A stretch of 64,000 bases of DNA from Halichondria panicea (Eukaryota; Porifera; Demospongiae; Suberitida; Halichondriidae): assembly GCF_963675165.1 (NCBI RefSeq), contig NC_087389.1, positions 3,470,830 to 3,534,829 on the forward strand. The letters are read 5' to 3'. Positions 9,025-53,944 of this stretch are shown in pieces (the stretch's first letter is position 1; each line of letters begins with the position of its first letter). Below the pieces are notes generated by a model. The model made no database searches and was not told where the DNA came from. It was given only the letters and a program-made list of their open reading frames with translations. The position numbers and the translations under genes are program-made.

Positions 9025-9793
9025 TCTCTGTGAAGATGATCTGGAACGCGTAAAAATTACTGTCTCCCCTTTCTCTGCCTGTCACTCACTGTCTCTCACC
9101 GGCACCAGGGGACAGGCCGGGTGCTCTGTCCAAAGATATAGCTTTGCTCCTCAGCTCAGACCTCCTCTGATATGTTAGCCTCGATCCCAGGCCGCACTAG
9201 ATCTACTATCATGGCATTTTTTTAGCATTTTTGAGGGGAGGGGCTGGCCTGCTGATTGGCATTAGCCCCGAAGAGAACCACTCTCTGGCCTCGAACCCAG
9301 CACTAGTATAGTATTACATATATAATAGTAAAGTGAACTGCTGGGGCAAAATCTAGAGAACTAGGATCTTTCTCTCTTCCCCCTCCCCCCTCTGAGAAAA
9401 GGTCTGGCCCCCAGGCTAGGGAACTGGTAGGCATTGACTGTACTATACTATGGCATAATCAAACAAGGAAGCTCTAGTGGTTTATTCTATATCTCTGTGT
9501 ACTTGTCTTGGAGCCTACACAACAGGATATGGGGTAGGGTGAGTCAATATTTAAATCATTATCTATGATTAGTCTCGCGGACCCAGACCCTGAGAAAGAG
9601 ATATATCGATATATATATCGGCTGGTCGATCCACGAGACTAATCTATGGATATATGTATGGGATTATTAACGTGAGGCCTGCCGCGGCGCAGTGCTGTGG
9701 GTTATAGTAGTCGCTCAGTGTGTTTATGTGTGTGTGTGTATATGTATTCTGAGTCTACTCGTACTCACCTAGATACCATAGCGCTGACCTTGT

Positions 9794-20146: not shown

Positions 20147-23100
20147 CTAAGTAGAGTCAAGTGAGCACAAGTGCTGGCAAATATCAATTGCTAGTTGGCC
20201 TTCGTTGGCATTCAGTACTATCTCAATGAGTGCTCTGTAGGTGGCAGCAAAGGGGTTGCGCTTTCTCCACAACCTCAAAGCCTCAGCCACGGCACTTTGT
20301 GTGCTTCTTTTTACTGACAGGAGGTTTGTTACGTCTCTTTGCTGGCTTTGGGTTAGTCCCAAGGGAATCATGTAGTCTTCCACATTACCAAAGTGATCGG
20401 AAAGTCCGAGCATGTCTTTTTCATCAATTTGTCCATCAAGTTGAGAGTCGGTCACTTTAGTACGCTCCTTCAGTTCTTCAACAGTCAGTGTCCTCAGTCC
20501 ACCAGTTCCTATGCCACATTTATCATGAGTAGAAGTATTACAAGACAGAGCTATACTATAATAATTTACCTGGTGTTTCTGGGCTATTTTGACAGATCTG
20601 CAGATCAAAAAATATAATATTGTGTTGCTAATAGTCACCAGCACGTATAACATTTATTTCACATACCAAGAGTAGATACTCTTATCTACTCTTGCACATA
20701 CCTATAGATTCCCACAACACAATACAATTCGTGCATACATGATTGTATCTACCTATATACATATAACTTACTTGCTCTTGTAGAATAACATCAACTTTTT
20801 CACTGCTATCTCCACTTCCTTTCCATTCCTCGAAACACTTAGGACATGCACCAACAGGAACTTCGATTTTAGGCTCATTGTCGTCAAAAGCCACAAATGT
20901 GAAGACAGACGGTTGAGGACAGTGACATAGCAGCATTGGGCCAGCACGATACTTCAAGCCTTGAAATCCACTCTCTTGGCATATCCTCTTGAGGTACTCA
21001 TCATGAATGAGCTGGATACATTCTGAAGGTTTCTTTCCCTTTAATACCCTGCATGTATTTGTAGTGGTTGTGAACATGGTTCAGATATGGGCAAATATTT
21101 GTAACAATTGTGACTAAGTTTAGTACATGTAGGTTGACTTATAGGCTTACCTCACAGAAATCTTTATTCTATGCTGAAGAACTTCCAGTTGAACTTTCCA
21201 TTTACAGTCATGAACCATATCAAAGCAACACAAGAAGCGAGAAACACGACTTCTCCTACGATGCTTTTGAGCTGCTGCCATCAACATGCATACCAAACGG
21301 TGATACACTTCCATAGGTAGAAACTTTTCAAAGTCGAAATAAAATTCCATCCAGGGAATGGTGCTTTGAGCTACCTCTTCGATCATGTCATCTTGAAGCT
21401 CCGGTAGCATTGAAGGGATAACAAAGCATTTGTTGGTTGGACTATCACTGTGACAGCTGGCGGAATCGGCCTGGGAATCGTTACCAGATGTCGGATGAAT
21501 CAGACAATAGGCTTGTAGAATTACACTCAGTGTTGTAGCGTCAACTATATCAGACTTGAGAATTTGTTGACACAATCTTTCGAGAACGGCAAAAGAGATT
21601 ATACCACTCTGTAAATTTCGTTCTTCTTTCCCTGAGAGAATATTGTCACTATCTTTGGATAACTCCATGATAATCTTCATGATTTCAATTAACATTTTCG
21701 GATCGATTATCACCAACTCCTTAATCTTTTCGGCATCCTTTTCACTTAAAAGCAGCTTGGACACGCGATCTGGAAGATACAAGAGAGTACACACATTACT
21801 TATTGTAAAAAGTAAATTCTGAAAGTGTGTATCAATGCAGCCACATAAACAAGTGATGGGGGGGGGGGTTATGCTTTAAGAACCACATCATACAGTACAT
21901 GCAAAAAACGTACCGAGAAGAATTATCTCCCCAACATCATGAAAGAATTCCAGGGCATTAGTGGGGTGTGGAACACCTTTGCGCTCAGCAATTTTAATCA
22001 TTTCATTCTTTCGACAGCACCTCTCAATTTCTCCTTTCTTCTTTTCTCGTTTGATGTCATTTTTCATCTCTTTCAGTTTACCTTCTAATCGAAGCCAAGA
22101 CAGGGGATATACTTCATTCAAAAACTTCAATTTCTTACTTATACCGTCGAGTGTACTTCGGACTTCTAAGGCTCCACTGTTGATCGGATCAGTCACTGAA
22201 TTTTCTACTGCAATGAAGTATCTTCCGTTAATTTTACAAAGGTGATTTACGCATCTATCATCCTCCACGAGCACTTTTCGTACCTCCTTATTGATTTCTT
22301 TCAGTTGATCCTGTGTGATTTCTTCTTTGCCAATTCCAGGATTGCGGTGAGTGCCTACAAGTACTACTCTTCTCTGATACTTGTCTTCTGTTTCTTCATT
22401 CTCATTTGGTTCCGGTGGAGAGATGTGTGCATGAATCGAATGCAACCAGTACCGAACTTCCTCCATTGGATTGGGTTGGAAATTTGGTTGAAGCAGATAT
22501 TCCCGCATATCTTGCAAATTGAACACCACAATGTACATGGATCGTCTCCTGATGAAGCAGTGATGCATTGGTCGGTAGTTTTCTTGGCCAGCGAAATCCA
22601 GGACATTCAGTATAAGGGTTGGCTTTGTATCCTTCATCAGATGTTTCCGGTTTTTAAATGCATTGTTGACGATTTTAGCTTCTAACCGACTGCATACACT
22701 GATACTTCGCTCAGGGGGTACGATTTTAGTAGACACAGGTAAAGGTTGGGAAACAGACTTTTTGACTTGGGAAACTTTGGGGACTTGTGGTTTTGATGGA
22801 GGCTTGGGAGTAAATTCAATTTTCTCTGGCGCTATCAATGTGTTAGCTGCACTTGAATTGAGAACTGGAGGTGGTGAGGGAGAATTTTCTACTGGTGCCA
22901 GTTTCACTTGTTGGTCAGTAGGAGTGTTCGATGGTCGAGGATCACTCGAAAGAAATGAGTACGAGTCTAAAATTGGATCACGTTCCTTCCGCAAATTTAT
23001 TTTAGGAACCAGAGGCTTCGTTTCTTTGTTGATTTTCGTGTTAATATCCTCTATTCTTCGGAGAAGCTCACCCAAAGATTTTTCTTGAAACTTCTGAGAA

Positions 23101-26100
23101 GCTGCTTGCTTTTTCACTTCCTCTGGAAGCCCTTTGATAATAGCCAATGCATGCATTTCATCTCTCTCTCTTTGCTGGTCTCCCTCGCTTGTTTCAGACC
23201 ACTGCATTGTGACTGCTCGAGAATCGACTGTATCCACTTCATTATTGTCAATGCCACGAGTTGATTTTTGGTTCGGATCAAATTCTTTCCCAACGATCAG
23301 TTTATAGAGACTTGTCTTGCCTTTGCGTGCTTCCCCGAGAAACAACAGACCACATCGAGGAATTTTTTTCTTCCCTTGTCTTAACGCTTGCTTGTAACTT
23401 TCGATGAAAACGGATCCACGCTTCACAATCTCGGGGGGAATAACTGCTCATGTGTGTGTGTTTGAGAAAAAGAAGACACTATCAAACATGCACAATACTT
23501 TAAGCACTAGGCTATCATCAGAGGTACATGTACATGCACATTTTCCACGTGGGAAAAATGACTTATATCAAATATGCGCAATGCCGCCCAAACCCAACTG
23601 TACGTTCTAAGCATTCACAAAAGCATGTGCGATATACTGCACAGGTCAGACATAGTGATATCAAACAAACTCACTGTCTTCGGGTTCCACATCCCTAGGA
23701 GACTGACCAGCCTATAAAATGATAAGAGAATATAATTATATATTTTTAATTGTCAGCCAAACATGCATGTGCATCAATAACTGAACCAGTGAATAAACCA
23801 AATATTATACATGTAGGAGACACACCTGGTTCTTCTCTTCGTGGAGAGCTTTACCATGTTCAGTTGCGAGAATAACCTTTTCTACTCTCTCACTTGACTT
23901 TGCTCGTGCTACATGGAGGACTGTGTTTCCCTAAAATTAAAATAGCATGGATTTGAAGCACACCAGTAGGTCTGTATAGTACAAACATACATGTATGTGT
24001 GTACAGATGTAGCTCGTACAAAATTGATGTATACTTTTGCCCTTGGGCATTACATTACATTGCTCCAGTGCAATATTTACCATGTTGCACGAGGGCGCCT
24101 TGCACAATGTTTTTTTTAATTATTACACACCATTATGTCCTTCCGATCAGCTTTGCACCCCTTGTCTAAGAGAGCCTTTGCGATCTCTGCTGAGTCATGA
24201 ATAGCTGCGATATGGAGAGCACTCTTCTCTCCTGTTCTCTCTCCATCATCACTGCTTTCCTCAACAAAGTCCGACACATCCACATCTGACCGCCCAACCA
24301 GGTAATTCGCTGCATCCACTTTCTGATACTCACATGCTGTCAGAAAAGGGGAGTATCCAGCCTGAAAGAAAAGAACGGAATACTATAAATTGCCAATCCC
24401 TGTATAAGCACTGCAAATGCTTTAGTACTCCCCATACACATCCTCACCTTCGTTTTCTGCTTGAGAAGGTCAGACTTGTCCTCATCACTGATCACTGTCA
24501 TATTTTCCAACAGCCATTCGGTGAGATTAGGGCTCTTGCGATTAGAGCAAACATAGTGGATTATATTCCAGCCAATCTGGGGAGAAGTACATTGTAATGG
24601 ACAGTATTATTGTTTAAACAGTATTATTGTTTAAAGTGAAGTACACTATGATTATCTACGGTGGCCCTAAAGGTCACTCAGTACCGTCTTTGTTCTAATT
24701 ACAGCACCAAAACAAATCTGGAAATGGTCCACATTTGGAACGACAAAAGATTATTATTGAGGAGTGGTTCTTAGAATAAGGTGGAGCTAACAAAAAAAAA
24801 AAAAAGAAATATTCAAACACAGTGACAGATTGCTTCGAATATAGCAGTTTCAAGACCTCAAACGTTTATGATTTAGCTATATCTACACTCAAAGTAGTAT
24901 TCTTTCTATCAAATGTGTATACCGTATATCTTCTAGTTTATCGGACACTTCTAATTACCCCGGACACTCTTTTGGGCAATTTTCGTTGTTCTAATACAAC
25001 GGACACTCCAGTGCTTTAATATTACATTTGTTCTAAATATCCGGACAATACTTTGAAAAGTTGAGTTACATTCACCATTCACAGACGGCAAGTAAGACAA
25101 GACTTAGAGTGCTGCAGTTAGATAGCTTTGAGTAGCTAGTTTTAGATAGCTAGTGCAACTATTCAGTCGCACACTGGTCTATTAAACTTAGCTAGCTCGC
25201 ATGCAGCTGCTTGCTTGTTCTAATTATTCCGGACACTTCGCATGCTGTATAAAAATCTGTTCCAATTATACCCGGACAATTTCCAAAATAATTATTTTTT
25301 GCTGTCCGATAAATTAGAAGATATACGGTACATATCATCAACAGCAGCATTTAACTGAGCATGGCTTGCAGAGTATGTGCTTGAAGCTATGCTAACTGTA
25401 TTTATAACGAAAGGTTGTTAGTTATGGTCGTGTAAACTAATTAACTAAGCACCACAATAAAATAATGGAAATGGTTCATAAATAGAACAAAAAATAAATA
25501 GAAACTGCGAGTTGGTTGTAGTTAGAAAAAAGACGGTAGTTCTGTTCTCAACTTGGTGTTCTGCACTTGAGCTTCACTAGTTAGTGTTCTCAACTTCGTG
25601 TTCTGTACTTGAGCTTTGTTAGTTAAGTCTTCAATAGTTTACGACCTTTGACCCATGTGTGTGGTTTGTTGGTAACCGAGAATAGTTAGCTGACCAGCGA
25701 CTAAGAAGAGATGTTATTGCTTCTCATGTAACTATATATAGTGAACCTGTAGATCTATCTGGTATTCATTGTGCAACCTGATACAACTTCACCATGCAGT
25801 CAAATTTTGAATAGATATTGAGCTGCTCTCAAATTGTCATGTTTCACTAACTTCACTAGCCTCCTTCACTGGCCTCCCCTGGCCTGCTACTGACTGCTTG
25901 CGCATACGCAAAATTATTGGATATTTTCCCTCGTAGAATGTCCTATAATACTGAATTTATCGGAGAAAAAATCCTGACGAAGAATGTACTGATTATTAAA
26001 AGTCATACCAAGAGTTCCTAATTAACTCTTGGTCATACCATAGATTGAGTAGTTAACAAGGATTGGAAACGGGATCACGTGCGGTGATGGTGTTGATTGA

Positions 26101-29100
26101 AAAACATGTGTTGCTGATTTCAAGTATCAACTACGCTAATTAATTTATGTGTTTATTTGTACCTCTATGCAGAGGTGAAGAGGTTATAATTTCACAATTT
26201 TTAGTTATAGGCCAAGCATAGGAATAGGTTAATCGTAATGTCTTATTTCTATGACCTGAATGCATTCTTGTGAGAAGTTACACCTTGCTAGGTAAACGTT
26301 GAACATGTCGACCGTTTGTGTATGCAGATATGCCTTAAAGACCCAAATTCCAACATCATCAGGCAAATACAAGAAAGAAATAACTTCAGAAAGATTATGG
26401 GATCCCTATATAAGTTAAAAAGTCATAAAGAACAAGAAAGTTTTTTCGTAGTTTTGTCCATACAAGCTTCATTTCAGTTTATATTTCACAAAAAATGTCA
26501 TAAATATCACAATAATAATGGCCAATAGACAGTTGATACTTCCAAATGGCCAACAGGCATAATAATATATAATTTTGTCTTTATAGAGCCTATAGTGTCT
26601 TAGGTGAGATCCAGAGGAGAGTTTTGCTCAATCTGGCTGATGCTACAAGCTCTCCCCTACAGCTAGCCTCGACCCCAGGCCGATCTGTCTCCAATTGAAC
26701 GCTAGGTCGCCTACTAGGCCTGGTATTGATTGTATTTGGGCGTGATCTGGGCGTGGTTTTTTAATACATTGACTCTGTGGTACAACAAAAAATGAATCCT
26801 CCAACAGTGGTCTTCAACAACAGCCTCTGGGGCAGTATACAGCAGGAAATACTTCCCAGAAGACACTTCTTTGGCAGTGGCAACCAAATATTTGTCGATT
26901 TATTTATTGCTACTGAGGATGGCAGCAGAAACACCTCTATTGTTTAGACTCCTGACCTGGTCAATCATGAGTCTCATGATGAGAGATACAAGGGGAGAGA
27001 CAATTAACAAGAACAACACTTTTGTCAACAGGAGGAGCCTTGGTCCTACCTAGCTTGTAGTCCATTAAAAAGGGTAGCAACTGATATAGCAGAGAGACTT
27101 GCCATACCCCGTTGGGAACCAGATAAACACGTCCCTTCCCTCAAACAGGAGATTGAGAGCCTGGGCCTGTTCTGCCATGAGAGTGAGGCCATCTTGCTTC
27201 AAACAAGACAACGCGTTGCATGCCATAGCTAGCTAGCTATAAATTGAGAACATGACACGGAGCTACATTACTGTAACTTTTACGGGAGTAAAATGCCTCT
27301 ACGTACACCTTTAGTATTACAGAAAAAAAGCAGGAAACAAAGTGTGAAGAATCTCTGCTTTTGTATCCGGTTCCTGCCACGCCCAGATACAATCAATACC
27401 AGGCCGTATTTTTCAACTTCGTTCTATTAAAAAAAAATTGGCCTGGGACTGAGGCTACCCTACAGCATGTATGCAGGAACGATCACATTTGCTGCTCATC
27501 AGCCCTGTCTTCTGTCTTTTGCTACTCATAGCCAGCCACCTTCGGTATAGCCTCGATTCAAGCCTGGTGGCCTGGTTTCGAGGCCTGATCATATACATGA
27601 CGTCAACTGAAACACGGATGGTTTCATCCGGTTCTATTGCATTTCCAATCCCTCTCCCTCCTTAATCTATGGTACAAATAAGGTTTACATTCCATTGGTC
27701 TGGCACATTCCATTGTGAAATGACCTCAAGACAAGAGTGCTCAGACCCTTTCTTAGGAGGGGGCTGATCCATGAGACTAATATCAATGGTGGATCTAGCC
27801 TCGTTCCCAGGCCGATCGAGTCGACCTAGCGTTCAATTGGAGACGGATCGGCCTGGGAACGAGGCAATGGTGGATCTAGATACTGCCAAACAAAAATGAC
27901 TTGATAGAACCACACGCAAATATCTGACCTTGTTGTTCTGTCTTCAGATTAATGTTTTCTAAGCTTCAGGGAAGAAAAGCTTCAGCTAAGAGGCATTCCA
28001 ATCGATTCTAATAATGGTAAACGGGATGCTGACTGCTAGTACACGAATATAAATGTCACGGAAGTGAACGAGAATACATTCGTCAGAATCTGACGAACGA
28101 CTGACGCATGCGCAGACAGGCCTAGTTGTTTGCCTAACCGTTATAAAAGCGAAAACTCAGCCTGGGATCGAGGCTATGCAAGGCTCTGCTGATGCAGCCA
28201 TTATTTTAGACATAGACTTTTGGCATCGATTGTTTTTAACAATAATCATTCGATCGTTTACCCACTCCTTGAGTTTGCATGCAGCAAAACAAAAATGTTC
28301 ATCATGATATAATAATGTGTATATATATGTTATGTATAGTTTTGGTACCTCCACCGAGGCATCAGCACCCGCGGTGCTTTCATTATTATATCAGTACCAG
28401 GTCATAAAACTATAATTTTGTGCTTGTTATACTCATCATACTATTATATGATGTGGTTGTCTTTGTTTGCTCCAGCTTTCAATCCCAAGTCAAGTGTATA
28501 TGTAAGGAACAAGTTTAAGAAGAAATTGGCTCGATTTGAAGAACAGTGTAGTATCATCTTGTACCTCAGTTCACGAATGAAGCAAGGGTACAAAGAACCA
28601 GTCAGCAGGTCTATTGATTTCGATTTCAAGATGAACACATTTCTCAAGCTAAAGACCAGGGCAACTTCACTACAGACTGTATGATACTGTGTTAACTACA
28701 ATAATTATGCTATACTATAATTTTAGCGTGGAGTGAAATTAATTACCTCAGTAGTCAGTACGTTAACTCATGCTCAAAACTAGAAGCAGGTGCAGCCCTA
28801 GTACTAGCTTCTCATTTCACCCTTAGATTGCACGATCATAAATTTTATAAAAAAGGCAAACATAATAACATTTTACATAAGAAAAATGTTATGCTTAATC
28901 TATGGTCATACATAGAGCTATATAGCTAGCTAGCTAGCTAGAGACAGAGCTGTAGGTTGTTGTACAGCTATTTTCTTTCTGATAGAGTCAGCAGCAGTTC
29001 AGAGGAGGGAGGACACGATTAACCTTAGCTAATAATTAGCTAATTATCACGACCTTTTAATGAAATTCTTTGAACGATTCGTCTTTTATTCTTTATAACT

Positions 29101-32100
29101 CTACATGTTGGACACAGAGTAGAGCTAGAGCTAGAGCAAAGTACATGAAGTAAGCGTAATCATAGAAGTTCTCCTACTGGAGATACTCCTATATGGCCAA
29201 GTTGCTAGGACGTGAAGATAATAGGACCCCTATAAGAAGCACCCAAGTACTCCTATCTCCAAGATCCCTGTGAGAAGCATCCCGGGCACTCTGATCTTGT
29301 CTCTGTGAGAAGCACTCCTGATCCTGTCTCCAGAATCCCTATGAGGAGCACCCCAGGTACTCCTGTCTCCAAAATTCCTGTGAGAAGCACCCCAGGCACT
29401 CCTGTCTCTGTGATAATTAAAGCTGCAACATGGAATTGTTTACTTCAGAACGTCTCCAACATGAAGAACATCAATGGCACTAACAGTCTCAGCTTCTAGC
29501 ACCCCTTTATTTTTGTAGTTTGCTCTGTGCCTGCACGAATTGCCTGTCACCCCTACTACAGTACAGTTTTGTGTGTCCCAATATGTAGAGGTTATAAAGA
29601 AAGAAAAGACGAATCGTTCATCATTAAAAGGTCGTAATAATTAGCTAATTATTAGCTAAGGTTAATCCTGTCCTCCCTCTTCTAATAGACTTTCACCAAA
29701 GTTAGTATTTGATGGGCGTAGCCTGTTCATTAGGCTAGTGTTACTTTCACTCCGTTCAGACGATTGTCATCCACACTGTTGCAGGCTGTGAGTCTTTTGT
29801 TAGCATAGCAGGCTACGGGTAGCTATCAGCTCTTTCTCAGATGGGCTAGAAACTTTCAATCGAAATTCCTATCTACTTCCTTTAATCCACTTCCGTTCAT
29901 TGTGACGTCGTTGTTTTACTGAGCATACACGTTGTTATCCTGCGTTAGCCGGTATCTGGCTAATGGTTAGCGCATGCGCAAGCAGTCGATACCAGGGCCA
30001 TGCACTGTTCGAGGAAGTGCGGCCTGGGATCGAGGCTATAACTTCAACATGATTTTAATGCAGAACATGAATATTATTATAATTTATGGACTGTATTTCT
30101 GTACAACTTGTCTTGTATGTAGCTCTAGTTTTTCATATTATACTGCAGTCCTTATTATAACGGTCGGCAGACGGCCCCTTTGCCGACCATTTAGTGCATG
30201 TGACCGGTCAATTTGCCATGTGCTCTGACAAATTGGCCGGACAATATTTTAGTGCTAGTACTAGTTCTGAGAAGGAGCAGAGGCATCTAGTTAGTATAGC
30301 TACTTTTGAAAGATGAAAACAGAAGAAATGACTGTGCCAAGCAGCATAGAAGAACCATCTTGTTGAGTCACTCAAGGAAAAATATTTGTAAGCATTTTGA
30401 TGGATGGCTCCGCCAGCTATATGTCAAGCCATTAGAGTATCAGGGATGAAAATAAGTATTTTATCACTGTGTCAAGTCATTTTCAATGTTCACCTGCCAC
30501 CAATGAAAGGACCTGACAGCCTGTCGTCATAATTATAATTATGTCTTATTAATTTTTGTTTTGATGTTTATAATCGTAATAATAATTATAGTAGTATAAA
30601 GCACAACTCATAAAAACCCGACACTATTTCTTTGAGCTAAACCAGTCTAAATACAGTTCCTTGTGAGTCCACTGACTGTCTAACTCAAGAGCACCAAAGA
30701 GTAGAAACATGTCTTTCTGGTCTAGCCAGTCATGGAGTCAGGACTGATACTTCTCATAGGAGCACTGCCACTTCTAGTCTGTTTTTTTGATTTGAGCTGC
30801 TTGCATCAATGGCACTGGGATGCATCAGTTTTCTTGAACTAGCTACGTAGATGGTACATGTAGATCTAGTAGCTCTACAAATTATTGCTGATTTAGTTTT
30901 TTTGCACACATGGCAATTTTCTGAGCATGCGCAGTTGTTGTCCGGCCAGATGGCAGTTCATGCAGTACAATAGACGGCCAAGCAGGCTATGTGCTCAGAT
31001 TTTTACCGGTAGCCGGTGGCCGGCTGTTATTTTCATCTCTGAGTATATGGTAGGACATTATGTCCTTTCAATTCTTAATCCTTATAATAAGCACTAGTGC
31101 TGTATACAGCTCGGATCTTGCTATACTTGCGTACTTAGCTAGCTAGCTAGGCCTTAGGCTGCTATTGCATTATCAGTAGCAAGCGCATCTATAGGTCAAA
31201 GGTCACCAACTATCAAAGGCTAAACTAGCAAAGATCAAGTACAGAACACCAAGTTGAGAACACAGCTACTAAGTGACCGACCTTCAGGGCCACCGTAATT
31301 ATCAATTATTATAGTCTTGTATGTTCATTAATTTTAGCAAACACCCAATACAGTTACAATGTACATACATGTAGCCAGGGGGTGGAAAAAGGAGCAATCC
31401 CTTTTTTTGGAACACCAATACTCAGTTCTACTACGTCTTAGACTTTAGCTAGCTAGAAGAAACAGTTACAAGCATGTACGTATACAAACAAAATACGTAC
31501 GTGTGGAGGTTGCTCACATTTGACCACAAAATTATAATGCAATAATGGGTACTCAAGGTTTTTTAAATAAATGGGCGTGGTTTCCGGTCAAACTTTTCCG
31601 CTAGTGCCGCCCGATCTTTTGCTCCCCATTCTAGCTACGCCTCTGCAAGACGATTGCACATATATCGGATGTACATCACACACCGTCGCACCAAAATAAT
31701 ACTTACATGTAGATGGATACATTCACTTACTTTATCTGTTGCCATAAATAGCTCCTTTAGAACATCAGGAAGCAGGGGTGGAAGGTCGCCAATAATGTGA
31801 CGAAGAGTTTTGTCACTACCTTCACTGCAGGCTATGTGGAGGAAGTTGGCTCCCTTCTGCAATGTACAGCAAAATGGACACAGGTACATATGTAAAGGTC
31901 AAGCAAAAAACAGTGTCAGAATGACGTTCATCCGAGTACATAAGTGGAGCTATATACCGTATTACTAGAATATTTTGCGGGTGAAAAACTTTTGCAAATG
32001 AGCTAAATCAGCTGACTCTTTGCGATCTAACAATTGCGATTTGGCAAGGATCGTGTGCATTTACTAGTAATAATTTAGGTTTTGCGATTTTATTGTTGCG

Positions 32101-33930: not shown

Positions 33931-34505
33931 AGTCGAGTCAGTCAGATCAGGATCTCTCAGGAACAATACAGATCGTGATCTACATAGAGTGTACAAGTAA
34001 AGAATATACATGTACACAAGCGTCTCTTGACCAGCTTGGAATAACGTCTTTACACTCATTGGGTACGTAATAACAGGCTAGTATCCACAAAATCTAGCCT
34101 ACCCTTTTTTTAGCTGCAACTGAATAGGATTTGGTTCCTCAGGCTCTAGTTTATAGCCTTGCATAGTAGATAGCTCTTTGATTAGAACTCAAGTTGGGTC
34201 TCACCAAAAATTAGGAACTCCAGCCAAAGTATTGGTTAACGTAACATGGACCAGAACTCCTGATATGATCCTCAGTACTTATTTCTGTCAGAACAGTGCT
34301 AGTACAGCACAAGTACAGCATGCAGCAGAACCAGATACACCGCCCCCTTTTGAGATCTACCCCGGCCCTAGCCTCGATCCCAGCCCCTCTCACTCAATTG
34401 AGTGCGGCCTGGAATCGAGGCTACCCCGCCCCTGCTCTGGCCCAGCCCCTTCCGATCATGTGTACGTCAGAGGTATGTGTACGTGTAGATCTAGCAGATT
34501 TGAGG
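33931..34505. promoter_or_regulatory. Shared divergent 5' region of the two paralogues
   Basis: The 575 bp between the start codons of paralogue A (-) and paralogue B (+) must contain both promoters, unless unseen 5' exons exist. It includes a 55-bp hairpin (34369-34423). In both genes the start Met follows a similar in-frame upstream context (DLTDST-M and DLADLR-M), a relic of the inverted duplication. No core promoter motif is assigned. Confidence 0.5.
34369..34423. repeat. 55-bp TAGCCTCG hairpin
   Basis: TAGCCTCGATCCCAGCCCC pairs imperfectly with GGCCTGGAATCGAGGCTA around a CTCAATTGAG centre. Near-matching CCCCGGCCC and CCCCGCCCC flank it. It is a miniature member of the TAGCCTCG family sitting about 80 bp upstream of the paralogue B start codon. 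Confidence 0.75.
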
Positions 34506-37500
34506 ATGGCAGCTCAAGTGAAGGCTAGCAGGTCAAGGCACAGGGACGCCTTGCAGGGTATTATACTGACTGCAGTATACCTCAAGCACAATGATCCCAT
34601 TCACAAAGCAGTGGAGGTCATTAGAGACCAGAGGCTGGATGGAAGGAAACCTTCTAAGGAAGGCCAGAAGGGTGGACTGCAACTTTTGGATTTCTTACCC
34701 CAGAAAGATGCACAAGTGAGTTTATCTAGATGCAACTGCCGACTGCCGTTAATTCAGATAATAAGGTAGTTTGTCAAGTGTGCTATCTAGTTAGTGTGGG
34801 GCATGCAATGCTTTGTAATTTCCACCGTATGGTTATGCTAGCCTCGATTCAAGGCCGATTAAAATACGGCCTGGTACCTATTGCAGGGGTGATAGTGCGC
34901 ATGCGCTTCAAATTACCCAGAATATGGGTAATCGTACTACGAACGTAAAACCTTAGTAAATTATACAGGAAATTAGTCCGTTTACTAAGAATATGTTCCG
35001 TAATACTTTATCTCTATGTGAAGCTGTGGCTTATGCCGTCTATTGCGTTGGTCTAGAAGGCTTGAACACTAGTTTTAAGACAGAAGAGGCTCTCATCTAC
35101 GTCTAGGATGGTCCTATAGCCGGGTTGTCTTCGCGAGTAGCAGTTTGAGGCACCATACACTTCCCATAGCCTGTACAGATCCAAGGTAAGACATCCTGAC
35201 CATACAACCGTATTAGAGGTAGATGAGAGCCTCTTCTGGCTTCAGACTAGTGTGAAAGCCTTCTGGAACAACGCAATAGAGAGCTAAGCTGATGTACAAA
35301 GATAGAAAATAGATGAGAGAAGAAAAAAGGGGATTCCCCAGATTCTGGTGGAATAAACTAACGCATGCGCACTAACACCATGCAATAGGTACCAGGCCGT
35401 ATTTTAATCGGCCTGGAATCGAGGCTAGGTTTATGCATACCCTGTATATTTCCAAATGTCTTTGTACCTGAATATGTATATAATTATTATGCACCACACT
35501 GTATGTCACATGGGACCGCATTCCTGTGGGGATTGTGGTAGTGTGGTACTGAGGTTAGTTTTGCCTATTAAGGTTACGGTATAATTATACTAACTCAAAT
35601 TTGCGTGTGCAATTCAGCTGCAGTAACGGAGTGATGGTCACTTGGCTTCATTTTCTAGCCCGAGGAAATTAAAAGGACAGGGCCGCTCGAAACGTTTTCC
35701 CCGAGAGAGTAAATTGAAACAAAGAGTAGACACAGCCACATGTATTTATCTGTTGTAGGCTAATAAAATAAAATGGCGATGTAGAGTAGCTAGTAATAGG
35801 GATATATTTCTGGCTGCATGTGTACGATCTCCATGAACAGAATCTCTTCGAGTGGCCATCCAGTAACTCTTAATTTAAAGCATCGAATACTGGTCAGAAA
35901 GACAACATTGAAGCTATAATTATGCATCAAGAAAAACTTAGACGTCAGTAGTTTTTTCCAGCTAACCTCAGACCTCTTCAATGGATTTTTACAAGACATG
36001 CAAACTCTGAGCAATCGTTGTTACTGTTCTCTTTTTATTCATGAATAGTTATTGAATGTAAAATAATGTTGTGATAAAATAAATACCGTATAGCGGGTAG
36101 AGTTCGTTAGTACACACTTTCGTATCAACTGCCCAATTCAATGTTTTGTATTTTATTTGCATAGCTCAAAAATTTTGAATTTTCGTATGATATGCTCTAC
36201 AATATGAAAATTGTCCACCCTATGAAAATAACCTGCTATACAGCATTGTATATGAATTATACATGAGCAATTGAATGATTACACTGTAACCCTAGTAGAT
36301 TGTGTGCAAAACTACGAAAACCTGTTAAACGAATGCAATTATACATGTAGTATACTTGTATATAGACGTACAGTACGTACGTATCCAACGTCATAAAGTA
36401 GTAATCACGAATCGTATGATGTCTTCATAATAACATCACCCATTCTCCCCTGGTTCAGGTTGACTCGGACTACAGGTCCCATTCACCCCTCATGCTAGCC
36501 TGTGAGTGCGAACTTCAAGATGGTGTAGACACCCACCAAAAAGGAGACGTAGACAGAGTCAGATTGCTGCTGGACCTAGGAGCATCTGCTGCTTTCAAGA
36601 ACAAGGTACACCGTTGTTAGATTTATTCTGAGCAGATCTACTGTCACATGCAGCTGTTTGATTGTGATGCACTTATTAAATGCTCTGTCTGGTCTTATGC
36701 ATGGTATTTAATGAAATGTTTTTTCCAGGAAGGGCTGAATGCTCTCCACATTGCTTGCAAAACTGGGAACCTGGAGATCTGTCAACTCTTGCTCAAGAAA
36801 GCAAAAGATCAAAATCACTTTGGGGAAAAGAAAACCTTCACCTCCGATTTGTCTATTTTGGTCAATGCCAAAGAAAAGGTACAATTAATGTCACTATTAT
36901 AAACAGGTTATAAATGGGTACTAATTTTAGCGAATTTACCGAATTTGTAAGTAATGCTAAATTATGTCCGCACTAATAATAAAACGCATTTAAAAATTAT
37001 GAATCTCACTAATTTTCTATTACGAAAATGTACTTTTGAGAGTTAGCCCTTTTTTCATCTGTATCTGACTCCCAAACTTTCCATCCAATCATACTTTTCA
37101 TTTTTCGACAAACATTGTGTAAATGAATTTCTTCAAATCCGCCAAAATTAGTACACCCTAAAAACAGTGAAAACGCTAAAATTACTACAATGTACCTGTC
37201 TATAATAGTAACCGGTATTTTGTAGAGGTCAGACATTACATGCATACAGTGCGTACATACGTTACACATAATTATATCTGGCACTACACGTATGATAACC
37301 CTCCCCCAGAGAGGCTGGACTCCATTGATGTATGCTGTTCAGAAAGACCAACTGGAAATTGTTACCGAGCTGGTAGACACTGACGTTCTAGAGTTCTCGA
37401 AGACAAACAAGGTCAGTAATGAGCCATATGATGTAAGAAAAAAAATTCAAAGTATTGGTTCTACAGAAAGGGGCTACATTCCTCCACCTTGCTTGTCGTA

Positions 37501-40500
37501 ACGGCAGTGTCAACACTCTGCAGTACATTATCACACACCCTCACTTAGTATCCAAGAATATGTTCACAGCAACTGATAAGGTTCGTACTACCCTAGAATT
37601 AAAGCTTTATCATGCCTCGGTAATTAAAGCTTTATCATGCCTCAGCGCACATGCACAGCAAGGTACACATAGGGTAGTGTGTGTGTGTGTGTGTGTAATG
37701 CTGATGTAACTGCTCTACCGTAGCCTTGAAATTTGGCTCGTGGATTTGCAAATTTATAAAGCTTATTTCTCGAGTTATGGCTAGTTTTGCTTCTTAGAGG
37801 CCATTGAAGTCACTTTAGTCTCAGTTTAGACTTCTGCGTAGCAAAATCTGTAGCTAGTTGTCTCTGCAGTAGAGCGCTTAGTTGGCGGAGTGATAAAAGA
37901 GCTCCATTAATTGCCAACATAATTATAAGCAGCCATAATTATTGCATCAGTACTGCACATGGCCGCTACCATTTGTTGTTTTGAGCTTTAACTTTTAGCA
38001 TCCCTTTTTTTAGCAACAATTTACGATTGATCATTTCCTACTCAATTCATCATTCCTGCGTGCAAATTCAATTATTCGTTTCCACCAAGGTATCAGCTTC
38101 GGTCGTGTATTATTGGTGGTAGTAAATATTATTTACCGCCTGTTACTAACCTCGTTCCCAGTAGCATTGGTGCTGCGGAAAGTGAGTATTATGCACACGT
38201 ACTTTAGGAAGTTATTTGTAAGCAGCTACTCGATGGTGTGTTGATGTTCATAAACCGTATACTGGAAGTAGAAATTTAGCGTTACAATTGGGGAAAAATG
38301 GCCTGGGAATGAGGCTGCTCACCCCACTCATGCATTAAGACTTTCAAGAGAAAAATAAGGCGAACAAAAAATTATGGTAACATACATAGTAAGGCCTGAA
38401 AAGCAGTGGCGGATCCAGGAATGTTGAGAGGAGGTTCCAAAACAGTTAAAAAAAAGGTCATCACTTTCCTAAGCAATGAGCATGCCCATTAGAGAGCCCT
38501 GCCAACATAATTACAATTGCATGACTAGTAACTACAGATCACGATCATTCAAGCTGAGTTGCTAGCTATAGTAAGTTGATCTCCCAGTGTGTTCTTGTGT
38601 GAAAGGGGGGTCCATGGAACCCATGGAATCCGCCACTGAAAAGATTTAAACAAAATACATGTACCTGTACTGCACATTATGCTTGAATTGCTTGAATTCT
38701 ACTCACAGAAAGGCTGGAACATTCTTCACTATGCCTGCTGTTCTGACTTTGAACAGGACGGTCAGAGTTATGTTCAGTGGCTCTTAGAGACAATTCCTGA
38801 TGAGATTCTCAGTGACGCTGACAAATCAAACCTCCTGTCACAAAAGAATGATGTACGTAACTGGGTGGTTAGGATCATACATATCCTTATTCCATTCATC
38901 AGTATACAATTATAAGATGACTTCCTACACATGTATACATGCGTTAATACAAGAGTTCATTAGGATGAATGAACTCTTGATAGTTATAATGAAAAGCTCT
39001 TGTTGTCGTATATACATGCAGAATTTGATGTATTTGCTGTACGTAGGCTGGCTACTCCCCTCTGCTGACAGCGTGTGAATATCAGAAGGTTGCTGCGGTA
39101 AAGTATCTGGCTGGGCGGTCAGATGTGGATGTGTCAGACTACGTTAAGGAGGATGAGGGAGGGGTAACTGGAGAGAAGAGTGCTCTCCATCTTGCAGCTA
39201 TTCATGACTCAGCAGATATTGCCGGAATCCTCCAAAAGGAGGGATGCAAGATTGATCGAATTGATTCACGGGTTAGTGTGAATCTTTTTTTAGTCTCTTA
39301 ACTCATTTATAAATATCACTGTGAACATGTGTTACTGTAATGTGTGTGCTAGCTACAGTTGTGTACTTACGTAGATATACATGTATGCCGATGCCAAATC
39401 AAATGATAAACATGGATTCTCGTTTCAGGGTAACACGGTTCTACATGTAGCGAAAAGAAAATCTAGTGAGCAAGTGGAGAGAGTCATTCTTGAAACTACA
39501 GCCGGTCAGAAGCTTCTAGAAGAAAAAAATCTGGTATGTACAATTACATGTGAAATCCTTGTATAAATGTAGTGTGTTGAATTTATGCTCCGTCAGTTAA
39601 ACCTTTCCCCCCACACACACAGAGTGACCAGCTGCCCGGGGATGTGAAGCCCCAAGACAGTGAGTGCTCTTTCTTATGTCATTCCGCGCATGCATATTTA
39701 TAAACATAAACTTTTACGTTTACAGTACTTGTACATTCCTACATGTTGAAACATAGCATTATAGTCACTCGCTATTTGTTTTTTACTCATAGTTATTCCT
39801 CCCGAGATTGTGAAACGTGGACCCATTTTTGTTGAGCGTTACATGCGAGCTCTAAGACAAGGGAAGGAGAAAATTCCTCGATGTGGTCTACTGTTTCTTG
39901 GGCAAGAACGCAAAGGCAAGACAAGTCTCTATAAACTGATTGTTGGGAAACAATTTGATCCGGAACAAGATTCGACTCGTGGAATTGACAATAATGAAGT
40001 GGATACAGTCGATTCTCGAGCAGTCACAATGAACTGGTCTGAAAAGAGTGCGGTAGACCAGCAAAGAGAGAGGGATGATTCTCATGCGTTTGCTGTGCTA
40101 AGAGAACTCCCAGATGATGAGCAGCATGATCGATCATTCAAATTTCAACAAAAGACTGAAGAGGAGCTCCTTAGCAGCATTGAGGGTATCAACCGTGATA
40201 TGAAGGCTCACTATAAACGAAAACCCAGGCTACAAGACCTTATAAAAAAAATCTTATCTGGCGATGGCGATGATTTCTTCAATTATAGTGATGATGACTC
40301 TCTTGATGAGATGCCATCAGATCCGATAATTCCAAAATCGCCTGCTACAAAACCTGCTCCGTCTGTTTCAACAACAGTTGAACCCAAGAAAAATGAGGTT
40401 TTTTCCAAACCTTCACCCAAGCCACGAGAGCCCAAAGTTCCCTCACCCCGTCATCCAAAAAAAGCTGTGTCAGATCCACTACCTGAACCTTCTGAGGTTG

Positions 40501-43500
40501 AACCCCCTGCTCCCACACCGTTGGAGCTAATTGTCAGCATACCGGTAAGTACACGTACAGAAGCTAAAAATGTCAATAAGGTCTTGAAAGAAGGAAAGAA
40601 GGATCGAAAAGAGCCTTCTCTTCTACTGAATGTGCTGGATTTTGCTGGACAGAAGAATTATCGACCGATGCATCACTGCTTCATTAGGAGACGATCCATG
40701 TACATTGTGGTGTTCAATTTGCAAGATATGTGCAAATACATTCAGCAAGCTGACTCATGCCAGTCACCACCAAGTCCTGTTGAAGAGATACGATATTGGC
40801 TTCACTCCATTCATGCACACATCTACCCACCTGAATCAAAAGAAAGAGGAATAGATGAACGCCAACGGAGAGTTGTGCTCGTAGGTACTCACCAAAATCC
40901 TGGACAGGATGGTCGAGAAGTTACCGAAGAAGATTTCCGGCAGATTGACAAGTTGTTAGCTGAAGAAATAGTAGCCGATGTTCGATGTGTCGATCACCTC
41001 TGCAAAGTTTCTGGACGATGGTTTATTCCAGTCGAAAACTCACTCAAAGATCCAAGCAAGAGCGGAGCAAGAATGCTTCAAAACACTCTTCATGACATAA
41101 AGAATGGGTTGCAGTTTCTAGAAGAATCTTACCCACTACCCTGGCTACGGTTCGAAGGCAGATTGATTGAAATGAAGAAGACACCCAATCAAAAGAAATG
41201 TCTTCCAGAGAAAGAAGTTGTTGAAATTGCCGAGAGTAAGGGTGTCTCAAATCCTGGCGATGCCCTAGAGTTTTTTCATGACATTGGCGAGATAATTCTT
41301 TTGCGTAAGTTTTGCTCACAGGTATACTGCATGTACATGTGTATATACAAGCCTTTGAGGCAGTATAGTATAGCTTAGAACCTGTGCATTATTTTTACCT
41401 ACTTACATATTAGCAAAAAAATTTGTTTTGCTTGCATGCCATTGAATTTTTCCATCGAGCACTATAGCTACAAAAAGCATATGCTGAAATACATGTAGAC
41501 CCATCAGAACAGTATTATCACTTTTACCATGTAGGTAGAGTGTCTAAGCTTTTTGTTACTGAGGAAGAGTCAAAAAGTATCTCGGATTTAGTGGTCATTG
41601 ATCCAAAATGGCTAATTGGAATCATGCAAATCATCATGGAGCTACCAGAAAATTGCGGGCTTATTACAGGGAGGGAGCAGGAAATGCTAAGACGGCATGG
41701 TGAAATTTCTCTTAATGTGCTCGAGCAGTTATGGGGTGATTCAAAGCATGATATTCTCAAATCGAGTGCAGTCAAAGCTGAAAAACTTGCAGTGGTTTTA
41801 CAAGCATACTGTTTGATTCACTCAGCTGCCAGTTCTGATTCGGTGGATTCTAGTGGCAAGTTGTTCATCATCCCTTCGATGCTCCCCCACATTACAGACG
41901 CCGAAAAGGAAAAGATAGCTCCGAGTCACCTTCCTTGGATTGTATTTTATTTCGACTTCCAAAGGTTTCTTCCTGAGGAAGTATATCACCGTTTGGTTTG
42001 CATGCTGATGGCGGAAGCACAAAGGGCGGGGAGTCGCAGACAGTTTCATTCCCTGTGTTTGTTTGACAGGGTTCACAATTGTAAAATGGTGGTTGAGCTG
42101 GAAGCTCTTCTACACAGGATAAAAATATCTGTGATGTAAGTGTTTTACCGTTTAGATTATATTTTGCAGCAGCTATTTTGCCTCTATATGCACCTTAACC
42201 ACAGTGTATAGACCAACCTGTACATTTTCTAATTCTGTATGCATGCAGTGTGTCTGGAGGAAAGTTGGAGCCTTCGGAGTGTATCAAGCTGGTGCATGAC
42301 AAATACCTCAAGAGGATTTGCCAAGAGAGTGGTCTTCAAGGCTTGAAATATTACGGGGGTCCAATGCTGCCATGTTGCTGTTCTCAACCGTCAGTCTTCA
42401 CATATGTCACATTTGACATTGGCAAAAGTAGTGACCTGACTATTGAATGCCTTCAGTGTTTGAAGCAGTGCGAGGAGAATGAAATGGATGATGAAGTAAG
42501 GTGGTACGAATAAGTTTTAATATCTTATTTGATTGTGGGTGAAAAACCCTTTGCGATCTAACATTTGCATTCTGGCAAGGATCGTGTGTATAGTTTAAAT
42601 GATCAATGCTTGCAAAGTTGGCATGTTAGATGCTCCCAAAACATTCTAGTAATTATGGTAGCTAATTTTTCTTTATCGTTTTTCAGATGAAAAGCCTAGC
42701 TACTCAAGAAACACAGTCAGGTAAAATTCACTGCACTCGATGTAATATTATGTATGCTGCGTAGTCAACAATATGCTATAATAGTCAAGTATTTGCCTTG
42801 CATTTAATCGAACATCACTGGCCACGAGAAGTGTGGAGGTGTCAATAAAGAAGGATAGCTACCGTTACTTTAGTAACATGCAATGTTAAAACGTCTTGAA
42901 TTAGTTATACTTGTGTGCTCATTCCACAGATGACCAACTAAAGACGAGTGGTCCACAACAAACCTCTGCATCCAAACCTGATGCAACCAAACCAGGTACG
43001 CATGCATGACCATGCACATTCTGGGAAGGGAAGAAGTGTATATAGGATTGTCCATAGATATACATGTACACATAATTATATACAGTATTTGATATCAGTT
43101 GATCATGAAGTACGTACAACGTTGTTTAGCGGACCTGTATACTCTATAATTATACCAAGGGCATATAATTATCAGGCATGCAACTCACTATAATTTTGTG
43201 TACAAGGCAAAATGCACCGAGATTGTATACATAGATTCCAGTACGCAACAGCAGTCAACGTTTATGTGTGGGTGGAATGTCTGAAAATAGCTGTGCTGTA
43301 TAGCAGGTACATTTGGCGACTATTTGCCGAATAAAGGTGCACAATTTCAATGTTTTAGCTTGCAATACATGTATTGATATGCATGATCATTAAAAAGTCG
43401 CTAATAATAGTTCAATTGCCTCCTTTGCCATTTTTACCTGCATGCTATACATTGTATGTGGTACACAGGGTTTCATACAGGATTTTTAGCCAAGCGGGAA

Positions 43501-44598
43501 ATGACGACGGTCGTACGCCGTTGAAAATTTGGGGGTCCGGGGGGCAGCCCCTGAGAAAATTTGGCAGAATGATTGTCTAAGGTGCATTTTTGGAGCAAAG
43601 CAGAAAAGTACTCAAATTGACCTCTAGTGTGTGTACAGAGCCTATGGTCCCACTATGTACATGCTCTGCTTATGTTGTAAGGTTTAAATTTCAAAGGGTA
43701 TCATCAGAAGTATCATAATAATAATTGTATACATGCATTTTGTGTATGTAATCTCCTGTCTGAACTCTTGAACTGTACCATGTGCTTGATTGGATATACA
43801 TGTATGCACTCCTGATGTATGTAAGAGGCTTTTTCTCAATTGACTGATACACGTTGAATAATCATTATAGCTACATGTAGATCTATCTGAATCACTGTAC
43901 AATTTGGTATGACATCATTAATTTTTCATATTTCCAGGGGGATTTTGGTCAGGGGGAAATCCCAGGGCGCCCCCCCCCCTGTATGAAACCCTGGTACATG
44001 TATATGAATTTGTATTAGTCTGCATGCACACAGTGTGAGTCCATGCCCTCTCCTGATATACCCCCTTGATTAATTATACCAGTACATTTACATGTATCTG
44101 TTCCCTTGTTTACCAGGTAGTGCTGACAGTGCAACGATAAATGTGACAGCACCCCTACCGACCACACCCTCCTCACACAGCTCTCTTTCAGGTATGAAAT
44201 AACCCAAGTTTGCATACTGAAAATGTGGCAATTTGAATTAACTCACAGGAGCTGGTGGACAACAGACAGTGACCATTGAGGAATTGAAGAAGCATACGAA
44301 AGTAACTGACTCTCAACTTGGTACTAAAATTGAAGATAAGTGTATGTATTCCATTTCGGAATACTTTGAGAATGTAGATGACTATGTGGTGCTACTGAAA
44401 CTAAAGACTTGTGACGAAACAGATGTTAAAGACTTGGCAAAACTTAAGAGCACAAAGAATGCCATGTTCAAAGCCTTGAAACATTGGAGGGATCCCAACC
44501 CCTACACTGCCACTTACGGAGACCTGGTGGAAATATTGTTAGAGGCCAATAAAGGTCATGTTGCTGATAAGATTTGTGAGTTCTGTGCTCGATTATAG
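34506..44598 (+). CDS. Ankyrin-Roc-COR-Death protein, paralogue B
   Basis: Sixteen exons: 34506-34715, 36459-36605, 36729-36878, 37310-37411, 37467-37580, 38709-38852, 39047-39271, 39429-39533, 39623-39659, 39793-41304, 41535-42135, 42249-42495, 42687-42720, 42930-42995, 44117-44191 and 44249-44598. They total 4,119 nt, 1,372 residues plus stop, all in phase. The order matches paralogue A: ankyrin repeats (71-400), Roc with P-loop GQERKGKT at 448-455 and DFAGQ near 694-698, COR (YFDFQRFLPEEVYHRLVCML), and a Death domain at the end (VTIEELKKHTKVTDSQL; ALKHWRDPNPYTATYGDLVE). The G4 motif is THQN. Two extra linker exons (14 and 15) encode a Ser/Thr/Pro-rich spacer before the Death domain. Exon 2 has 33 extra nt relative to A within an ankyrin repeat. 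The first Met was chosen by alignment to A; an upstream in-frame Met exists. DAPK1-like tail without kinase; function inferred. Confidence 0.9.
34839..35427. repeat. Full-length 589-bp TAGCCTCG element
   Basis: It begins TAGCCTCGATTCAAGGCCGA and ends TCGGCCTGGAATCGAGGCTA. The next inner block GGCCTGGTACCTATTGCA is mirrored by GCAATAGGTACCAGGCC. It is flanked by GGTTATGC and GGTTTATGC, a near-matching duplication. It lies in intron 1 of paralogue B and is the intact relative of the copy at 5191-5732. Confidence 0.85.
36084..36243. repeat. TACCGTATAGCGGGTA MITE (intron 1 of paralogue B)
   Basis: Starts TACCGTATAGCGGGTAGAG and ends ATAACCTGCTATACAG. Inner arms share TTTCGTAT / ATACGAAA. It is the same family as 4182-4362. 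Confidence 0.7.
36894..37210. repeat. CTATTATARAC MITE (intron 3 of paralogue B)
   Basis: Left arm CTATTATAAACAGGT with GGGTACTAATTTTAGCG; right arm CGCTAAAATTACTAC and ACCTGTCTATAATAG. The same family is at 49547-49770. Confidence 0.75.
38404..38638. repeat. MITE with CAGTGGCGGATCC ends (intron 5 of paralogue B)
   Basis: Starts CAGTGGCGGATCCAGG and ends CATGGAATCCGCCACTG. AAAAG lies on both sides. CAGTGGCGGATCC is a widespread hAT-type terminus in animals (established knowledge, not checked here). Confidence 0.78.
42520..42657. repeat. Partial TACTAGAAT MITE (intron 12 of paralogue B)
   Basis: Shares GTGAAAAACCCTTTGCGATC, TGGCAAGGATCGTGTG and ACATTCTAGTAATTATGG with the element at 31955-32164. 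The left terminus is degraded. Confidence 0.6.
43466..43993. repeat. MITE with CAGGGTTTCATACAGG ends (intron 14 of paralogue B)
   Basis: Starts CAGGGTTTCATACAGG and ends CCCTGTATGAAACCCTG. The right arm carries a C run. GTACA occurs on both sides. No transposase frame is inside. Confidence 0.85.
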
Positions 44599-52742: not shown

Positions 52743-53004
52743 ATCTAGATCTAGCTCTCTGGACATGTTTTAAGCCCTGTTTACACACAGCATCTAATGC
52801 GCATTGTAAAGCGCATTACTACTAACGAGGTCTAGTCTAAACGCACTAATGCGCTATCAAAACCGGCTTACGTAAACCGCCTACCTGATGTGGTTTGAAG
52901 CCGGATCAATGCGGTTTAGACAGTAGTGTAAACAGCTGCAAGCGCATTAAAGGAATGCAAAGAATTCATTTGTGGCATAAGAAGTCCTATAAGAAGAGAA
53001 GACA

Positions 53005-53868
53005 ATGAACAGAGGCACATACTGGAGTGACAATGAAATGAAGGCACTAATAGCTATCTGGGGAGCTAGTGACTTGCAGCAGCAACTGGACGGAGCTGTA
53101 AGAAATAAAGTAATTTACGAAAAAATAGCACAAGAAATGAAGAAAAAGGAATATGAAAGAGACTGGACGCAATGTAGGATAAAAATTAAAAACTTAAAAA
53201 CAAACTACAAAAAAGTAAAGGATAGCAATAACAAGACTGGGGAAAGGAGGAAAACATGTAAGTTTTATGACGAGCTGGATAGGATTCTGGGGCACCGACC
53301 AGCCTCCGCTCCATCTTTCCTCGTTGACACAAGCTCTGAGATGGAGGAAAGGGTGGATGAGATTGTGGAGGATACAGACGGTACAATAATTATAATGATA
53401 CACTTGATACTTATCTTAAATTTATTAACACAGATGGCAGTCAAATTCAGCCACAGTTTCCAGTGGAGAGTGCCGGTGCTATGGCCAATACTGAAGGAGA
53501 AGCCAGTACCTCTGAAAAGGAGAAAACAGATGAATGTAAGTTCATAGAAAACATACAAGTGCACACACTTAAAATCTACACACACAGGTGCTCCCCCTAA
53601 AACAAAAAACCCCAGAAAAAACAAGACAGAAAAGGCTATGGAGAGGCAGACGGAGACATTCTTAAGCTACCAGAGAGAAGCAGAGGAAAGATTTGAAAAA
53701 AGAGAGGAAGAAAGATGGGATAAAGAGAGAAAATTAGAAGACGTGAGAAGAAAGGAGGAACAGGCACACCAACTACAGATGATGCAAATGCTTGGACAGA
53801 TGATACAGCAGCCAAGACAGTACTTCCCGCCACCATCACAATCATTTAACCAAGACTCGAATTACTAA
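53005..53868 (+). CDS. Harbinger Myb/SANT-like DNA-binding protein
   Basis: Three exons: 53005-53380, 53434-53535 and 53588-53868, giving 252 residues in frame. The N-terminal trihelix has the spaced Trp pattern (YWSDNEMKALIAIWG; RDWTQCRIKIKNLKTNYKK) of the Myb/SANT-like protein that Harbinger elements encode beside the transposase. The middle is acidic and low complexity; the C-terminal third is a highly charged coiled coil (EAEERFEKREEERWDKERK). In studied Harbinger elements this protein brings the transposase into the nucleus and binds element ends. The long single-frame reading through to 53547 ignores a good GT donor after DTDG, so the spliced form is preferred. Confidence 0.85.
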
Positions 53869-53944
53869 CTTCAATCATCAAACGTTATAATTATAATCAT
53901 AGTATTACAGTCCTTATTACATATAATTATACGTCACATTAATA

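Follow-up and report, generated by a model that had tools for sequence, protein, structure and literature searches.

A head-to-head pair of kinase-free ankyrin-Roc-COR genes with Death-like tails in the sponge Halichondria panicea

We analysed a stretch of 64,000 nucleotides of the demosponge Halichondria panicea (NC_087389.1, positions 3,470,830 to 3,534,829 of the forward strand; below, the window), in which two genes, A and B, are predicted to encode GTPases of the Roco type. Both gene models were rebuilt by hand from the raw sequence and checked with a script; the splice sites are predictions. The minus-strand gene A starts with an ATG at 33930 and stops at 20147, gene B is read away from it on the plus strand, and each frame has a lone terminal stop (Table 1). 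An earlier interpretation made from the letters of the window (the sequence-only reading) had described a head-to-head pair with a 575-bp spacer, conserved exon phases, exactly shared exon lengths and open frames, all of which were recovered in the rebuilt models. The entry phases of exons 1 to 14 are identical in A and B (0 nine times, then 1, 1, 2, 0 and 1), and exons 3, 4, 8 and 9 have the same lengths in both (150, 102, 105 and 37 nucleotides). An additional exon is present in B near its end (exon 14, 66 nucleotides). The length given previously for protein A was reproduced, while protein B was 25 residues shorter in our model than had been reported (1,347 instead of 1,372). In the first exon of B, the open frame extends further upstream than the ATG chosen here.

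Table 1. Positions of the predicted features of genes A and B and of the spacer between them, numbered from the first letter of the window
Feature	Position	Strand	Remark
Gene A, 14 coding exons, 1,335 aa	20147..33930	-	GT-AG at every intron, open frame
Gene A, exons 1-7	33733-33930, 32755-32868, 32397-32546, 32203-32304, 31731-31856, 24448-24576, 24131-24361	-	
Gene A, exons 8-14	23826-23930, 23675-23711, 21914-23443, 21151-21769, 20772-21048, 20570-20597, 20147-20508	-	
Gene A, exon 1, N-terminal 66 aa	33733..33930	-	no Pfam family
Gene A, ankyrin repeats, exons 2-9	23675..32868	-	Pfam Ank_2 8.6e-37
Gene A, exon 10, Roc (P-loop GEARKGKTS, DFAGQ, GTHRN) and start of COR	21914..23443	-	Pfam Roc 54.2 bits
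Gene A, stretch A434-481, candidate gene-conversion tract	23193..23336	-	37/40 codons identical to B
Gene A, Roc insert, ~196 aa, between G2/switch I and G3	22623..23210	-	39% identity to B
Gene A, COR region, exons 11-12	20772..21769	-	colinear with B
Gene A, last exon, Death-like module	20147..20508	-	
Spacer between start codons (5' untranslated regions and any shared promoter)	33931-34505		575 bp ATG-to-ATG
Palindrome of ~55 bp inside the spacer	34369..34423		79% match to its own reverse complement
Gene B, 15 coding exons, 1,347 aa	34506..44598	+	GT-AG at every intron, open frame
Gene B, exons 1-8	34506-34715, 36459-36605, 36729-36878, 37310-37411, 37467-37580, 38709-38852, 39047-39271, 39429-39533	+	
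Gene B, exons 9-15	39623-39659, 39793-41304, 41535-42135, 42249-42495, 42687-42720, 42930-42995, 44249-44598	+	
Gene B, exon 1, N-terminal 70 aa	34506..34715	+	no Pfam family
Gene B, ankyrin repeats, exons 2-9	36459..39659	+	Pfam Ank_2 1e-41
Gene B, exon 10, Roc (P-loop GQERKGKTS, DFAGQ, GTHQN) and start of COR	39793..41304	+	Pfam Roc 49.6 bits
Gene B, counterpart of stretch A434-481	39900..40043	+	37/40 codons identical to A
Gene B, Roc insert, site equivalent to that of A	40026..40613	+	39% identity to A
Gene B, COR region, exons 11-12	41535..42495	+	COR-A 35.5 bits over residues 859-1032, in part encoded by exon 10
Gene B, last exon, Death-like module	44249..44598	+	

In both genes, the N-terminal exon is followed by ankyrin repeats, Roc, COR and a Death-like tail. 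The kinase-free character of this architecture, claimed earlier, was upheld by the rebuilt models and a Pfam scan (cut-offs of 27 bits for Roc, 35.3 for COR-A and 22.6 for Death): there was no kinase match in either protein model, and neither NACHT nor LRR was listed at E <= 10. The P-loop and the DFAGQ motif are intact in A and B, which may bind and hydrolyse GTP. COR directly follows Roc, as judged in B from a COR-A match barely over its cut-off and in A from colinearity with B. The insert in the Roc domains, between switch I and DFAGQ, contains many proline, serine and charged residues; the gap between switch I and G3 is short in both prokaryotic structures that were aligned (4wnr and 3dpu). 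The same two prokaryotic Roco structures were the best matches of the first part of Roc of B together with the preceding helix (PPEIVKRG) among the best 60 of 67 structure hits. No DAPK1 chain was found among these 60, so this search cannot separate prokaryotic Roco from DAPK1. The part of B from COR to the tail gave one irrelevant structure hit (E 0.16), and Rfam gave no match at the gathering score over positions 20000-45000.

Of 1,289 aligned residues, 756 (58.7%) are the same in the two proteins, far above chance; the inverted duplication proposed previously is supported. For the whole genes, the NG86 method gave a nonsynonymous divergence (dN) of 0.31 and a synonymous divergence (dS) of 1.36 (dN/dS ~0.23); the values were 0.32 and 1.35 with YN00 (dN/dS 0.24) and 0.29 and 0.94 with LWL85 (dN/dS 0.31). 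With a dS of ~1.4 and a low dN/dS, the duplication is old and both copies have been held by purifying selection. Identity was highest in the first part of Roc (85%) and lowest in the insert (39%), the tail being at 47%. Calculated by hand for seven segments, dN/dS was 0.16 for exon 1, 0.19 for the ankyrin repeats, 0.27 for the first part of Roc, 0.23 for the insert, 0.13 for the rest of Roc with COR-A, 0.27 for the following part of COR with the linker, and 0.31 for the tail; dS was above 2, near saturation, in two of them.

Silent sites are unevenly conserved between the two genes. Where A and B have the same residue (Met and Trp excluded), 423 of 733 codons are identical (58%), but from the P-loop through switch I (A434-481) this is the case for 37 of 40, a figure that none of 5,000 shuffles of the codon order reached. 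Gene conversion between A and B over this stretch is, as judged from a single species, the simplest reading and a likely one. A constraint on the nucleotides themselves, such as a splicing enhancer or an antisense feature, might also keep silent divergence low: the stretch lies within one exon, in the most conserved segment of the protein, and two further stretches (A112-136 and A303-330) have 17 of 20 codons identical each. However, around DFAGQ (A678-699), where the sequence is also well kept, silent sites have diverged to an ordinary extent (12 of 20 codons identical), and inverted neighbours such as A and B make good conversion partners. We find such a constraint rather unlikely.

Searches covered a genome of 131 Mb in 39 contigs. 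With Roc-COR of A as query, all 52 candidates were scored and gave 11 matches, of which 6 were pieces of A and B and the other 5 were weak (E 1.9e-4 to 9e-4, 24-27% identity). Exon 1 matched A and B and nothing else (2 of 2 candidates). Strong Roc-COR and exon-1 matches are thus confined to the pair. With the whole of A as query, the best 35 of 834 candidates were scored. The Roc profile had 141 matches among the best 150 of 354 candidates, COR-A had 60 matches from 70 candidates (25 of them above the cut-off), and Pfam Death had 148 among the best 150 of 503. Within 8 kb of the 60 COR hits, a Death match lay downstream on the same strand in 10 cases, upstream in 4, and on the opposite strand in none. 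The 10 cases of COR followed by Death indicate that Roc-COR with Death is recurrent in this genome and that this order can arise by shuffling. Three loci (C6:726482-732189, C28:38510-43797 and C4:6896976-6903271) have COR, then Death or the module described below, then a kinase match, on the same strand within ~6 kb; they are possible Roc-COR-Death-kinase genes, with a Roc match listed at C6 only.

The tail was found to belong to a large family. When the last 120 residues of A were used as query, the best 150 of 650 candidates all matched (E <= 7e-16), A and B included. The module measures ~115 amino acids, and the scored copies were on contigs C5 (35), C7 (34), C13 (31) and others. The tail of A is 58% identical to the copy at C13:3942734, 49-56% to many others on C13, and 47% to the tail of B. 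Pfam Death (PF00531), compared with 14 aligned members, matched 12 of them at E <= 0.1 (best 1e-5), and 3 of 6 members rescanned singly passed the Death cut-off (26.0, 22.7 and 23.3 bits). Against solved structures, a profile of the module matched OGT best (E 0.04), followed by CRADD, ETAA1 and FADD. We take the tail to be a divergent Death-superfamily domain, on the strength of this family membership and not of the scores of A and B themselves. The 150 module sites and the 148 Pfam Death matches do not overlap, partly because each set holds the best-scored matches.

Apart from A and B, 44 of 148 module sites were retrieved, 40 of them as short loci and 4 inside longer loci only, and a tree was computed from 46 rows, with L002-L005 omitted as repeats of L009, L014, L019 and L026. 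The tail of A grouped with C13:3942734 (support 90/86, not decisive) and that of B stood alone; a tree in which the two tails were forced together was not rejected (approximately unbiased test, p 0.37). From these sequences, a swap of tails between genes is possible.

We then considered the genes that carry or adjoin the module. For the 150 modules, a NACHT match within 8 kb was upstream on the same strand in 14 cases (at 3-8 kb, 11 of them at 3,005-3,186 bp), downstream in 6 (five at 871 bp, on C7) and on the opposite strand in none, the order on C13 being NACHT first and the module after it; these counts are lower bounds, as the best 102 of 265 NACHT candidates were scored. At C13:3942734, the module comes after coding frames for LRRs, with LRR_6 above its cut-off, and the DNA further upstream contains more LRRs and an NLRC4_HD2-like segment. 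At C13:4905262, it comes after a frame with NACHT and with NLRC4_HD2- and LRR-like parts under their cut-offs. At the acceptor position used in A and B before the module, AG was present in 21 of the 22 different loci retrieved from C13 (the exception being L029). The module also occurs near Roc or COR frames, at L007 (Roc above and COR-A under the cut-off) and L005 (COR-A under the cut-off). A listed Roc match lay within 8 kb on the same strand for 6 of the 150 modules (two of these being A and B) and on the opposite strand for 1, while listed COR matches were upstream of 5, downstream of 1 and on the opposite strand of none. Modules of one large family end A and B and also a number of NACHT-LRR (NLR) type genes; the position of modules downstream of NACHT matches is new here. 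These NLR-type genes resemble A and B in their C-terminal Death-like module; they differ in having NACHT-LRR in place of ankyrin-Roc-COR, and in their many copies on C13 as compared with one old pair. In the available part of one paper, sponge NLRs are described with N-terminal DEATH domains, and C-terminal ones are not mentioned there (PMC12909245); the available part of another reports an expansion of Death-like and TRADD-N in Amphimedon, with 357 proteins (PMC8195603).

The spacer had also been taken to indicate a shared promoter and, from it, co-expression. We find this argument weak, as 575 bp would be ordinary for a compact sponge-like genome: Amphimedon has a median of 587 bp between genes, and 11,379 of its genes form head-to-head arrangements in which the start sites are no more than 1 kb apart (PMC4773876), a comparison that assumes the genome to be of this compact type. 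The further step of the sequence-only reading, heterodimers of A and B through COR, likewise goes too far. One end of the spacer palindrome matches 9176-9198, 30016-30038, 35409-35427 and other sites, and the palindrome looks like the termini of other inverted-repeat elements in the window. Two copies of such an element, 85% alike, are at 34874-35437 (intron 1 of B) and 5190-5743, and ends of this type recur through the window. Intron 5 of A (24577-31730, 7.2 kb) holds several repeats, among them a pair on opposite strands (29001-29116 and 29683-29572, 87%). Further away, the frames at 1394-4042, 6438-9081 and 59756-63203 look by eye like membrane transporters and a BTB/BACK protein. At 52993-55255, a Myb/MADF-like frame lies beside a transposase-like frame on the opposite strand, together resembling, by eye, a PIF/Harbinger transposon.

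According to the sequence-only reading, the two proteins are the tail of DAPK1 in free-standing form. This stands for the order of the domains but goes too far as a statement of descent, since the tail is one of a family of modules found across the genome and COR followed by Death recurs. DAPK1 carries ankyrin repeats, as do A and B. In the part of a review that was available (PMC6337361), the DAPK1 group is metazoan and has Roc, COR and a C-terminal Death-type domain, without LRR. A and B likewise have Roc-COR followed by a Death-like domain (through family membership) and no LRR; unlike DAPK1, they have no N-terminal kinase, a ~196-residue insert between G2 and G3, and a tail from a large module family. 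Because the 575 bp between the start codons are shorter than a kinase domain of ~280 residues, there is no room for an upstream kinase there. The kinase exon that was to overturn the earlier claim is therefore not expected in the spacer, and nothing in these sequence-based models suggests one beyond the neighbouring gene. A and B could be true DAPK1-family descendants that lost the kinase and kept ankyrin-Roc-COR-Death, as their domain order, DAPK1 minus kinase, and the metazoan distribution of the group would allow. We find this descent doubtful, since the order could have come by shuffling of a tail from a large family of this genome, since nothing in the genome outside the pair corresponds to exon 1, and since the kinase of human DAPK1, used as query, reached at most 48% identity in the listed matches (139 matches from the best 136 of 773 candidates; long ones 29-38%, short ones up to 48%). 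Among these listed matches no true DAPK was apparent, which does not imply that the genome lacks one.

Other known systems share parts of the architecture. The structures of Chlorobium tepidum Roco (3dpu/6hlu) and Methanosarcina barkeri Roco2 (4wnr), with species names partly after PMC6337361, have in common with A and B the pre-Roc helix (PPEIVKxG), the P-loop and, more weakly, the G3 region; A and B differ from them by ankyrin repeats in place of LRR, by the Death-like tail and by the long insert. Placozoan and cnidarian ROCOs with Death or CARD are, like A and B, cases of Roc-COR joined to Death-type domains in early animals: Trichoplax has at least 17 ROCO genes, and the actiniarian NG3 combines kinase, Death, TIR and Roc/COR (PMC4104024, PMC5094078). 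A kinase-free head-to-head ankyrin-Roc-COR-Death pair is not described in the available parts of these two papers, and we found no description of such a pair from a sponge in the accessible portions of the open-licence literature.

Most likely, in our view, A and B represent a Roco variant that may serve as an immune or cell-death switch. The ankyrin repeats would probably bind a partner or ligand. This binding, with the GTP state of Roc-COR, would change the state of a dimer or oligomer, as in other Rocos; CtRoco dimerises through COR (PMC6337361, available part). The change would expose the Death module, which could then recruit other Death-module proteins, NACHT-LRR receptors among them, into an immune or cell-death network. 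Such recruitment is proposed because NACHT-LRR-type genes of this genome carry modules of that family at their ends. We observed anatomy, and from it we infer GTP switching, dimerisation, Death-Death recruitment and an immune role.

Several observations weigh against a switch of this kind. From the domains assigned by the sequence-only reading, profile searches confirmed ankyrin repeats and Roc in both genes and COR-A in B, but no COR-A match was listed for A in the Pfam scan and the tails of both scored under the Death cut-off. The matches of the module profile to the death domains of CRADD and FADD are weak (E 0.09-0.2, as for ETAA1), mixed with unrelated proteins and at most suggestive. AlphaFold models do not confirm the expected folds: the tail exon of A, run as a single sequence, was helical with a mean predicted local distance difference test score (pLDDT) of 45, too low to confirm a Death fold, and exon 10 of B, with A aligned, had a mean pLDDT of 39, too low to confirm Roc-COR. 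The G4 position usually holds an acidic residue. It reads GTHRN in A and GTHQN in B, an unusual form, so nucleotide binding is not assured. No NACHT match was listed at C13:3942734 among the best 102 of 265 candidates, the NLRC4_HD2 matches at both C13:3942734 and C13:4905262 are below the curated cut-off, and 130 of the 150 modules have no listed NACHT match within 8 kb. Finally, the flanking genes, judged by eye, are transporter-like and BTB-type and do not form an immune cluster. The 130 modules without a listed NACHT match and the nature of the flanking genes also speak for a Roco that is an ordinary housekeeping scaffold (in autophagy or the cytoskeleton) and has nothing to do with immunity, in which the module would be a common local building block; the low copy number of the pair, the purifying selection and the presence of the module near many kinds of genes agree with this. 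On the other hand, the distance at which the module ends NACHT-LRR-type genes is constant, and brown-algal Rocos have been proposed as immune receptors (PMC11378527, available part). We consider a housekeeping scaffold unlikely. Still less likely, and best viewed as speculation, is that A and B are the fixed low-copy GTPase hub of an expanded receptor network, common partners or brakes that join the assemblies of duplicating NACHT-LRR receptors by module contact, with conversion preserving the GTP site while the tails diverge. The explanation that we prefer, of A and B as old, maintained paralogous Roco GTPases from an inverted local duplication, with an ankyrin-Roc-COR-Death switch that joins an immune or cell-death network, we would put, as a whole, at about an even chance of being right.

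Besides the shared module, the membership of the tail in a large module family, the variable Roc insert of ~196 residues and the silent-site identity at the P-loop are new here. A natural kinase-free ankyrin-Roc-COR-Death protein would leave the GTPase open to study without a kinase. If NACHT-LRR receptors and a Roco GTPase of one animal do end in Death-type modules of a single family, NLRs and proteins of the DAPK1/LRRK type, which are usually treated apart, would meet in one testable signalling network.

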